A DNA stretch of 52,979 nucleotides, taken from Alphaproteobacteria bacterium (GTDB lineage Bacteria; Pseudomonadota; Alphaproteobacteria; CAAHEQ01; UBA3637). The notes under the pieces were generated by a model, which was given only the letters and a program-made list of their open reading frames with translations, searched no databases and was not told the DNA's origin. Position numbers and translations under genes: made by a program. The stretch is taken from assembly GCA_015062245.1 (NCBI GenBank), contig SUVA01000008.1, positions 1 to 52,979 of the forward strand. Reading direction: 5' to 3'. How positions within the stretch are numbered: position 1 is the stretch's first letter; the number at the start of each line of letters is the position of its first letter. Positions 26,340 to 30,682 of this stretch are shown here, in pieces.

Positions 26340-26343
26340 AACC

Positions 26344-26372
26344 TTGACTTTTAAGGGGCGTTCGGTTAGAAT
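26344..26372 (+). promoter_or_regulatory. Orphan duplicate of the ettA promoter
   Basis: TTGACT (26344-26349), 17 bp, TAGAAT (26367-26372), with GGGGC and GCCCC placed symmetrically around the -10. The whole block through the AAAGAAAGGA leader is nearly identical to the ettA promoter at 27860-27888, but no coding region follows. Confidence 0.75.
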
Positions 26373-26378
26373 AGCCCC

Positions 26379-26458
26379 AATTTTAATTTAAAGAAAGGAC
26401 AGGAATATCCATCCATTTAAATTATAAATAAAGCCCCAACCTGGGGCTTTATTTTATC
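26379..26458 (+). ncRNA. Candidate ~80-nt small RNA
   Basis: The orphan promoter predicts a start near 26379 and an intrinsic terminator ends near 26455. No start codon with an acceptable frame lies between. Inside, AATTTAAA (26385-26392) pairs with TTTAAATT (26416-26423) and leaves the ribosome-binding-site-like AAAGAAAGGA in the loop. It may be a regulatory RNA or simply the remnant of a deleted gene. Confidence 0.45.
26427..26453 (+). terminator. Terminator of the candidate small RNA / GT10 unit
   Basis: AATAAAGCCCC (26427-26437), loop AACCT, GGGGCTTTATT (26443-26453), then TTATCTT. This is an 11-bp perfect stem. Confidence 0.9.
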
Positions 26459-26577: not shown

Positions 26578-27531
26578 TTATCTTGATTTTCCTGCTTTTG
26601 GATTTAAATAACTCGGCTTTCTATTAGCCAACGCCGAAAGACGAGCAATCAGTCCCGTACGAACTGTTGTTGTTCCATTCTTTCTAACAGTCACTTTTTG
26701 AAGTTTTCCATCTTTATCATATTCAACTTCCATTCCTTTACGATCTTTTTTTGTTGTTAGCGCCAATTGCCCCTTATCATCGTAATATTTAACTTCTTCA
26801 TCACCATTGTTGCTTATTTTTGTTTCTACTTCTAGTTTTCCATTACGATCCATTCTTTTTGTGGTTTTAGTTCCATCTTTAGAGGTGTGTACTTCACTTA
26901 ATACATTACCCTCTAAGCTAAAAGTTTTTTCGGTCTTAGAACCATCTGCAGAAGTCTGTATTTCCTCCAACACAGAAATCTTACCATCTAATGCATTTTT
27001 AATAGATTTTTTTTCAATTTTATTGCCTTTAGCATCAGAAAACTCTTCTTGTACTTCACCATTTTCTTCTTGTATCAAATTCCGACTTCCATCTGCATAA
27101 CGAAACAAAATTTGTTTTTTTCCAGGACGTCTTATATTATTTTTTAAAACACCATTTTTATCACGCCCTATACCAATCCTTTCTGGAATATTTTGCTCAA
27201 TCTCGACATTACCTTTTCTATCCTCACGTTCAGAGTGGATAAGCGTTTCTGAACCTTGTTTAAGATCAAAGTATTTTTCTGTTTTTATACCATCGGCACT
27301 TTCATTTCTCTCTCTTAATAAATCCCTTCTCAGCACACCTTCCATATCACGCACAAATCCAATTGAGATATCCGTTGTTGTTCCATCTTTTTCTTTTCTA
27401 ATAGCTTGACCATTTCCGTATATCTCGATTGACAAACCATCAATCTCCATTGTTTCAACAACTTCACTTCTATTATATCCTTCTTTTTCCCGTAAAGTTT
27501 TCATTTTTAAATATAAATCTTGTTTATTCAT
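26578..27531 (-). CDS. Unknown hydrophilic repeat protein controlled by leader cassette 1
   Basis: 317 aa, no signal peptide. Much of it consists of irregular ~20-aa beta-type repeats with DGxxxxKxxxxxG patterns (SADGSKTEKTFS, SKDGTKTTKRMDRNGKLE, YYDDKGQLALTTKKDRKGME, YDKDGKLQKVTV), reminiscent of YD/MORN-like repeats. No catalytic domain is visible. AAAAAGGAG precedes the start at 27531. Directly upstream lie a U7 hairpin, a conserved small ORF and a promoter box, all homologous to the region before 29629-30453. Function unknown. Confidence 0.7.
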   Translation of the reverse strand: MNKQDLYLKMKTLREKEGYNRSEVVETMEIDGLSIEIYGNGQAIRKEKDGTTTDISIGFVRDMEGVLRRDLLRERNESADGIKTEKYFDLKQGSETLIHSEREDRKGNVEIEQNIPERIGIGRDKNGVLKNNIRRPGKKQILFRYADGSRNLIQEENGEVQEEFSDAKGNKIEKKSIKNALDGKISVLEEIQTSADGSKTEKTFSLEGNVLSEVHTSKDGTKTTKRMDRNGKLEVETKISNNGDEEVKYYDDKGQLALTTKKDRKGMEVEYDKDGKLQKVTVRKNGTTTVRTGLIARLSALANRKPSYLNPKAGKSR

Positions 27532-27543
27532 TTTTTCTCCTTT

Positions 27544-27705
27544 TTAAATATAAAAAAACACCGATGGGGTTATCCCATTGGTGGTGGTTATCAAAAATTT
27601 TGTAAAATTACAGATTAACTTTCTTGGCAATACCCCCCCCACGCACAAAAAAACCTTATTTTTCAAAGACTTATTTTGTGAGGTTGAAGCAATACAGTAT
27701 ACCAT
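27544..27705 (-). CDS. Conserved leader peptide of cassette 1
   Basis: 53 codons from an ATG at 27705 with AAAGGATAA just upstream. Residues 7-20 read STSQNKSLKNKVFL, and GGVLP follows a G8 tract; the same core occurs in cassette 2 (STYRNKSLKNKDFL ... GGVLP). The frame stays open through the terminator hairpin and stops 12 bp before the downstream gene, so here the hairpin lies inside the ORF. Translation is inferred from the ribosome-binding site and the matching frame; it could instead be an RNA element. Confidence 0.5.
   Translation of the reverse strand: MVYCIASTSQNKSLKNKVFLCVGGVLPRKLICNFTKFLITTTNGITPSVFFYI
27552..27583 (-). terminator. Attenuator-like hairpin with U7 before gene 26578-27531
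   Basis: On the minus strand CACCAATGGG pairs with CCCATCGGTG (one mismatch) around a 5-nt loop and is followed by seven T residues. The T-run ends 20 bp before the start codon, leaving the ribosome-binding site free. The position is that of an attenuator rather than of a terminator for an upstream gene. Confidence 0.65.
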
Positions 27706-27749
27706 GTTTATCCTTTCTACATCTTCATTTTTGCATATTTTTGAGGGTA

Positions 27750-27755
27750 TGTCAA
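27750..27755 (-). promoter_or_regulatory. Promoter box of leader cassette 1
   Basis: TTGACA on the minus strand within CTTGACATnCCC, a block conserved in cassette 2, as is the downstream AAAATATGCAAAA. The -10 at 17-bp spacing is poor (AAAAAT), so either an activator or an unusual sigma specificity would be needed. The 27756-27859 stretch between this box and the ettA promoter holds nothing recognisable. Confidence 0.5.
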
Positions 27756-27859
27756 GTGATTTTTTTATTTTTAATTTTTTTATCATTATAACTGGTTTTA
27801 GACCCGAAGCATCCCATGGATTCTTCCCCCATAAAGGGTTTCAAATGAGATAAAAGCTC

Positions 27860-27888
27860 TTGACTTTTTGGGGGTGTTCGGTTAGAAT
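27860..27888 (+). promoter_or_regulatory. ettA promoter
   Basis: TTGACT (27860-27865), 17 bp, TAGAAT (27883-27888). GGGGT (27871-27875) and ACCCC (27890-27894) flank the -10 as an inverted repeat. The leader of about 28 nt carries AAAGAAAGGA. Confidence 0.8.
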
Positions 27889-27922
27889 AACCCCAATTTT
27901 AATTTAAAGAAAGGATTTCAAA

Positions 27923-29628: not shown

Positions 29629-30453
29629 TTAACGACCACCTCTGGCTTGAGTTTGAGCCACAAAAGCTTGTGTATCCTTAACATCATCGCGTGCATTTTT
29701 CTTTTGCTCTTCTGTTGAAAATGGATTTTTTTCCACCTGTTTTGCCCAATGATTGAGTGCTTTTTTATCATCACTATTATAAGCGATCAGTCCCATCATT
29801 TCTTGGGCGCTTGGATATCCAGCTTTTGCAAATGCTTCCAAAAACTCTAATGATTTTTTTGCTAAAGGTGTGGGAAGTCCAGAACTTTTATCGTCTACTC
29901 TGTATTGTAACCTGCCGAAAAAAGGAGCTATTTCTTTATTAAAATGTTGCCCTTCTTCTGGAGATAGATATTTAGGATCTAATTCTGGTATACCGATTGA
30001 ATTCATTTCTTCTAACTCTCCCAATAATGAATCATTAGATGTTGCTTTTGAATTCACTTTTTTAACATCACGGATAAAATCCGAAAAACCAAGCCTCATT
30101 ATTAGGCCATTATTTGTTTTTTGTTCTTCTGTTGCAAAAGGATTATCTAACACTTGTTGAGCCGTAACTATTTTTCCAAATGCACTATCCTGAGTAGCTA
30201 CATTTAATTCTTGCGCAAGAGGATAACCTTTTTCAATAAATTCAGTAAAAAGTCTAAGACCTTCACCCGCTATGCGTCCTGTGTTTTTTGCAAATAACTT
30301 ATATAAAAACATTTCCATTTCTTTATTATGGGCGTTGGATGATGTCGCATCAGGTACATTCCCAAGCATCGTTGGAAGTGCCCTTTCAAATTCATCCCCT
30401 TCTATAAAAAGCATATGAGTATAGTATCCTTTTAATCTATCAAATAATCCCAT
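29629..30453 (-). CDS. Unknown protein with two internal Sel1-like repeats, controlled by leader cassette 2
   Basis: 274 aa, soluble, helical. An internal duplication is visible: FIEKGYPLAQELNV...VLDNPFATEEQK (about 70-109) and AFAKAGYPSAQEMMG...VEKNPFSTEEQK (about 210-253). The xAxxGYPxAQEMxG core is that of Sel1-type helical repeats, which usually mediate protein contacts. No signal peptide or catalytic motif is seen. Leader cassette 2 precedes it, although the protein is unrelated to the one behind cassette 1. Confidence 0.7.
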   Translation of the reverse strand: MGLFDRLKGYYTHMLFIEGDEFERALPTMLGNVPDATSSNAHNKEMEMFLYKLFAKNTGRIAGEGLRLFTEFIEKGYPLAQELNVATQDSAFGKIVTAQQVLDNPFATEEQKTNNGLIMRLGFSDFIRDVKKVNSKATSNDSLLGELEEMNSIGIPELDPKYLSPEEGQHFNKEIAPFFGRLQYRVDDKSSGLPTPLAKKSLEFLEAFAKAGYPSAQEMMGLIAYNSDDKKALNHWAKQVEKNPFSTEEQKKNARDDVKDTQAFVAQTQARGGR

Positions 30454-30478: not shown

Positions 30479-30510
30479 AAAAAAACACCGATGGTACAAA
30501 ACCATCCGTG
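30479..30510 (-). terminator. Attenuator-like hairpin with U7 before gene 29629-30453
   Basis: On the minus strand CACGGATGG pairs with CCATCGGTG (one mismatch) around loop TTTTGTA, followed by seven T residues. The gene start is 25 bp further. It corresponds in place and partly in sequence to the hairpin at 27552-27583. Confidence 0.65.
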
Positions 30511-30534
30511 CAGATTGTTAAAAATTTTGTTAAA

Positions 30535-30633
30535 TTATGGAATAAGGCTAGGCAATACCCCCCCCCACATTCGTAAAAAGTCCTTGTTTTTCAAAGACTT
30601 ATTTCTATAAGTTGAAGTGGTATAATGTTGCAT
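30535..30633 (-). CDS. Conserved leader peptide of cassette 2
   Basis: 32 codons plus stop, ATG at 30633 behind AAAGGATAA. Residues 7-20 read STYRNKSLKNKDFL and residues 24-28 GGVLP, encoded across a G9 tract. Compared with cassette 1, the net length difference in the variable segment is exactly one codon, so the downstream frame is preserved. Unlike cassette 1 it stops before the hairpin. Confidence 0.5.
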   Translation of the reverse strand: MQHYTTSTYRNKSLKNKDFLRMWGGVLPSLIP

Positions 30634-30676
30634 TTTTATCCTTTCACACCACAACTTTTGCATATTTTACGGGGAA

Positions 30677-30682
30677 TGTCAA
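30677..30682 (-). promoter_or_regulatory. Promoter box of leader cassette 2
   Basis: TTGACA on the minus strand in CTTGACATTCCCC. At 17-bp spacing the -10 would be AAAAGT, as weak as in cassette 1. The conserved AAAATATGCAAAA lies between. Confidence 0.5.

Follow-up and report, generated by a model that had tools for sequence, protein, structure and literature searches.

A portable G-tract leader in a genus of Alphaproteobacteria that may join phase variation to transcription attenuation

The window, by which we mean the whole 52,979-nucleotide stretch of DNA that was analysed, contains two leader cassettes, both on the minus strand (27544–27755 and 30479–30682). Their best reading, which we regard as reasonably probable, is a portable contingency locus wired to translation-coupled attenuation of the pyrBI type. 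Under this reading, RNA polymerase would start at the TTGACA promoter and a mini-ORF would be translated at once; a run of 8–11 G inside the mini-ORF would gain or lose a base during replication and so set the reading frame. In the OFF register the ribosome would stop 19–29 nt (115 nt in one copy) ahead of the terminator, whereupon the hairpin would fold and transcription would end in the U6–U7 run; in the ON register it would translate into or through the hairpin, which would then not fold, and polymerase would read through into the gene. Slippage in the population, termination at the U-run, ribosome-driven antitermination and the ON or OFF state of each gene are what we infer from this arrangement. 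More tentatively, with a likelihood that falls just short of even, we propose a genus-wide stochastic network built on a reusable slippage core of ~55 bp, in which G-tract leaders on a dozen unrelated genes and a reversed C-tract in type IV prepilins would yield random combinations of surface proteins.

Copy 1 opens with a CTTGACATACCC promoter, followed in order on the minus strand by AAAATATGCAAAA, AAAGGATAA and an ATG (27705–27703). Its −35 element, TTGACA (27750–27755), is separated by a 17-nt spacer from AAAAAT (27727–27732), which was assigned as the −10 element by consensus match only and is of the extended type (TGn, here TGC, precedes it). After the ATG come NKSLKNKVFL, GGVLP, a G8 tract (27633–27640; the candidate slippage site), a predicted hairpin (27559–27583; −12.6 kcal/mol), U7 (27552–27558) and gene 26578–27531, whose 317-residue product shows a weak YD-repeat/MORN-like resemblance in sequence comparison. 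The conserved core spans 27621–27679 (CM R1, E=5e-16, copy 1 itself being part of the model). In the G8 reading the leader ORF, MVYCIASTSQNKSLKNKVFLCVGGVLPRKL...PSVFFYI and stop, occupies 27544–27705, passes through the hairpin and is predicted to be ON. Copy 2 presents the same series from 30682 down to 30479: −35 TTGACA (30677–30682), a spacer of 17 nt, −10 AAAAGT (30654–30659), a core identified by sequence-model search (30545–30607), a G9 tract (30558–30566), a predicted hairpin (30486–30511; −14.1 kcal/mol) and U7 (30479–30485), ahead of gene 29629–30453 (274 residues, without a Pfam or NCBIfam match), all on the minus strand. Its leader ORF in the G9 reading, MQHYTTSTYRNKSLKNKDFLRMWGGVLPSLIP and stop (30535–30633), ends 23 nt ahead of the hairpin and is predicted to be OFF. 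The sequence-only reading had taken the ~200 nt before the two genes to be homologous and the downstream proteins to be unrelated; both statements are borne out, with E=2.6e-29 over 217 nt, every listed element present, and no BLASTP match between the two products. A shared RNA fold upstream of the terminator was considered and rejected: the z-score is −0.6 for copy 1, which does not surpass shuffles, and −2.5 for copy 2, and the structures differ, so that no common upstream structure is claimed.

Searches with the core sequence model and at the DNA level located the leader 15 times, across 5 of the 11 species of the genus, a count of search-found copies from which weaker ones may be missing. 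Six are in the window's own genome (G000, 1.12 Mb), namely the two of the window and four more on contigs C18, C26, C16 and C3; nine are in four other species (G006, two; G003, two; G005, one; G010, four). With these further copies, the repetition seen in the window far exceeds chance. The earlier idea of an attenuator-like leader reused before unrelated genes is supported: copies do exist in related genomes, and the idea also stood when the possibility that the two window regions are remnants of the 3' end of a single duplicated gene was tested. About 12 unrelated gene families lie behind the leaders, comprising type IV pilins, Cys-rich secreted, YD-repeat-like and unknown proteins; in the window's genome the C18, C26 and C16 leaders precede Cys-rich secreted proteins and the C3 leader a type IV pilin. 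When 14 of the 15 downstream proteins were compared with one another by BLASTP (the C18 gene, cut off at a contig end, was left out), only the two pilins and the two members of the Cys-rich pair proved related. An exact-pattern scan of 84,980 species genomes returned only two other assemblies, both of the same genus (the Alphaproteobacteria MAGs UBA3637 and RGIG9732, the latter from yak omasum), so the exact form is not widespread.

The mini-ORF runs from its ATG into the core in all 15 copies, partly hidden by an assembly gap in G006:C1. In six copies from G003, G005 and G010 the ATG lies exactly 6 nt past TATACT, and in C18, C26 and C16 it lies 7 nt past TAGGTT; because the start codon is only 6–7 nt past the −10 box, the leader mRNAs of these nine copies are probably leaderless. 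Eleven copies have a tract of 8–11 G. Lengths of 8, 9 and 11 coexist within one genome and near-identical paralogues differ (C16 and C26, G9; C18, G11), a variation that is between paralogues and species with one assembly each, in which assembled homopolymers can be wrong. The G-tract had previously been listed merely as an element of the cassette; it is indeed present in both window copies, and its length is likely to be the switch. Loss of mismatch repair as the cause of the long tracts was ruled out, as MutS is encoded in all 11 genomes, and slippage rates therefore need not be high.

One of the frames after the tract extends at least to the hairpin apex in every one of the 15 copies. The remaining frames mostly end 10–35 nt past the tract, short of the hairpin; in C3 a second frame ends at +53, within the hairpin. 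Only one of the 11 slippable copies, copy 1 (G8, predicted ON), is in the long frame; the other ten, copy 2 (G9) among them, read in a short frame and are predicted OFF, with the stop 19–29 nt ahead of the hairpin except in G010:C42 (115 nt). This OFF share exceeds the expected two-thirds. Judged from where their frames end, C16, C18, C26 and C3, in which a second frame terminates near or inside the hairpin, might have two of three registers ON. In a single copy the chance that a frame is open to the apex ranges from 0.19 to 0.96 in shuffles, so an open frame is often fortuitous and the argument rests on covariation and on the copies whose frame is locked.

Four copies have no slippable tract (G006:C1, GGGG; G010:C49, G6; G010:C25, GGGTGGG; G010:C37, none), and each of them reads in the long frame; shuffles kept the frame open with p = 0.049, 0.022, 0.006 and 0.009, respectively. 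The long frame in 4/4 locked against 1/11 slippable copies gives a Fisher p = 0.004 (hand calculation), a comparison limited by partial dependence among the locked copies, three of which come from one genome, G010. The clearest of them, at G010:C37:9347, reads MRGYMNTFSKTLIYQDKSLIIKDNFIFFEWDDLAFHRRTQSARLYNNSQTLTDRYEACNGIFL and is open from the ATG through the hairpin, with its stop right past the U-run. In the actual frame, the leader ORF enters or crosses the terminator in copy 1 and in the four locked ones; the other copies require a frame change. A hairpin with U6–U7 stands between promoter and gene in 14 copies as well as in this G010:C37 locus. Within the G003/G005/G010 family (seven copies), 8 of the 16 pairs show compensatory change and 90% of cells pair, values that 0/500 shuffles reach; to judge from this covariation, the predicted hairpin is under selection. 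At two G010 loci (C42 and C25) a dispersed repeat (GTCATCCTGAACGAACGTGAAG...CCTCAGAATGACG) has been inserted between tract and hairpin, and the long frame is still open to the hairpin despite the insertion.

Pilin genes of G007 (six genes), G010, G003, G006, G008 and G001 contain a related core in reverse orientation, which matches the leader core with BLAST E values down to 1e-9. The reversed core places a run of 5–12 C downstream of the start codon and ahead of the prepilin cleavage motif. Among intact pilin genes, 9 of 10 with at least seven C are out of frame, and two of three five-C copies are in frame. This arrangement is the one typical of contingency loci and supports the proposed role of the G-tract in the leaders. 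One pilin gene in another genus of the family (G042:C49) has C11 between start and cleavage site, and phase-variable pilins may extend past the genus. In G006:C24 a pilin-type gene has its C-tract in frame and is broken after FESG by a dispersed repeat. Further tracts of at least nine G, without the core, occur within or just before other genes, such as that of a Cys-rich protein (G001:C20, G006:C44, G004:C29 and others), and the phasome of the genus may be wider. Autotransporter-like genes (MKYSKTTLMELSHKY...) on G001:C15, G005:C14 and G003:C15 have a 5' UTR with a G-tract and a TTATTGAAAAATAA-like sequence, from which mini-ORF and terminator are apparently absent.

Runs of G8–G11 are slippery for polymerase and ribosome as well as during replication. 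Translation of the mini-ORF could therefore control the terminator while slippage by either machine on the G-run produces a fixed mixture of frames, and hence constant partial read-through. Such a mixture would explain why the genes persist when most assembled copies are in the short frame. We nevertheless consider it unlikely, since the paralogous tracts of C16, C26 and C18 and the pilin C-tracts, most of them out of frame, look like slipped-strand variation. It is less probable still that an RPE-like dispersed palindromic repeat simply landed in leaders and pilin N-termini, with hairpin and frames as by-products. In its favour, the core is partly palindromic and found in both orientations, and tRNA genes of a sister genus are followed by related palindromes; however, leader homology spans the whole unit from the mini-ORF or its promoter to the hairpin in a fixed order, the frame is kept in the tract-less copies, and the hairpin covaries. 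The palindrome in question, AAGTCCTTGTTTTTCAAGGACTTATTTTTT, is terminator-like, resembles the core stem and occurs 3' of tRNA genes at two loci of the sister genus. A second repeat, TTGAAAAATAAGGATTTTTTG, has 21 nt in common with the core and recurs in the window's own genome (three loci), once beside a tRNA gene.

The leader peptide itself is poorly conserved compared with the openness of its frame. Its dN/dS is ~0.56 in frame, hardly unlike that of the other frames. Where tract length or flanking sequence shifts the ORF into another frame, the peptide reads GGGIAK and stop (C3 of the window's genome) or has VLL or GIA (copies from three further species). The sequence-only reading had proposed a conserved mini-ORF in which translation of the leader peptide, or a ligand, decides whether the hairpin terminates. 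The NKSLKNK-type core does recur; GGVLP, by contrast, is unstable, being one of three readings of the G-tract, and neither a ligand nor a conserved arrest-type GGVLP peptide finds support. The weak conservation is consistent with translation as such, and not its product, being what matters. An attenuator that senses a metabolite or amino acid, or an arrest peptide of the trp, erm or tna type acting through NKSLKNK/GGVLP, would also comprise a mini-ORF and a terminator and could account for the recurring NK-L-NK core. Given a weakly constrained peptide whose GGVLP varies with frame, GGG as the sole codon run, and unrelated downstream genes, we think it highly improbable and reject the arrest-peptide and codon-sensing reading, the peptide not being conserved. 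An Rfam search of the leader region likewise gave nothing at the gathering score, only sub-threshold matches. No biosynthetic genes of the kind that follow trp/his-type attenuators were recognised downstream. The leader is neither a riboswitch of a known Rfam family nor an amino-acid attenuator. We give least credence to the terminated leader RNA being an antisense sRNA that base-pairs, through its G-tract and core, with the corresponding C-tract and core of pilin mRNA, mirroring RepG/tlpB, for although the cores are oppositely oriented, they do not reliably co-occur (R1 at E≤0.001 detects no pilin-type core in the window's genome, which has leaders, and G007 has six such cores and no leader) and in G010 they have little in common beyond the tract, so the reading was rejected.

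The preferred reading, a contingency locus that acts through attenuation, has partial precedents. In the pyrBI operon of E. coli, the leader ORF overlaps an intrinsic terminator and translation through the terminator blocks termination, attenuation being set by UTP-dependent polymerase pausing. The leaders described here, as read from their sequence, similarly have an ORF that enters or crosses the terminator, in some copies in the actual frame and in the others after a frame change. Unlike in pyrBI, a G-tract is the proposed determinant of the frame, and the leader stands before many unrelated genes, which encode pilins, Cys-rich and unknown proteins and not enzymes of pyrimidine biosynthesis. 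The leader may work like pyrBI but, because of this difference in downstream genes, does not belong to that class. At the contingency loci of Campylobacter, Neisseria, Helicobacter and Bordetella, a variable poly-G or poly-C sets the frame, often of a surface protein. The leaders (G8–G11) and pilins (C5–C12) share with them a frame-setting homopolymer and frames that differ between copies. In the leaders, however, the tract occupies a mini-ORF of its own upstream of the gene, and the switch would act by terminating transcription instead of truncating the gene product or changing promoter spacing. In H. pylori the sRNA RepG targets a variable G-repeat in the tlpB mRNA leader (PMC8295292); here, too, a variable G-repeat in an mRNA leader is proposed to control the gene, the difference being that it lies within a mini-ORF that precedes a terminator.

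A direct precedent for the proposed physical step is the W28/W28p construct, engineered in E. coli and not a natural switch, in which one added G shortened the distance between the stop and the terminator tR2 from 28 to 5 bp and nearly abolished termination (from ~90% to <10%; PMC4824070). In the same study, termination stayed maximal at stop–terminator distances >27 nt. Terminators less than 100 bp into a coding region can act despite translation because ribosomes lag (PMC4824070); by analogy, such lag can count against the mechanism proposed here, in which the hairpins lie ~110–220 nt past the mini-ORF ATG.

No description of a G-tract mini-ORF combined with a terminator was found in the open-licence full-text literature searched. 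In phase variation the tract usually lies within the gene or its promoter, and attenuators usually sense metabolism. A leader combining both could switch any gene behind it at random with the protein untouched, and would, if the reading is true, explain surface diversification in these small-genome uncultured alphaproteobacteria of gut and rumen. It would also be a compact natural part whose logic is open to a single-base test.

The leader is, as far as gene comparisons indicate, a removable module. A paralogue of the C16/C18/C26 gene in the same genome (C3:30163) is identical over 44 nt that comprise the ribosome-binding site and gene start, but these follow a plain promoter with no leader and no hairpin. 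In none of the nine relatives in which ettA was located was the copy-1 unit detected upstream of it; there, the preceding gene is followed by the ettA promoter or by ettA directly. In the window, the ettA promoter and 5' UTR (27858–27914, plus strand) has a second copy of 57 nt, 93% identical, at 26342–26398 (plus strand). These direct repeats bracket the copy-1 unit, the relatives have one copy, and the duplication hints at the route by which the unit entered.
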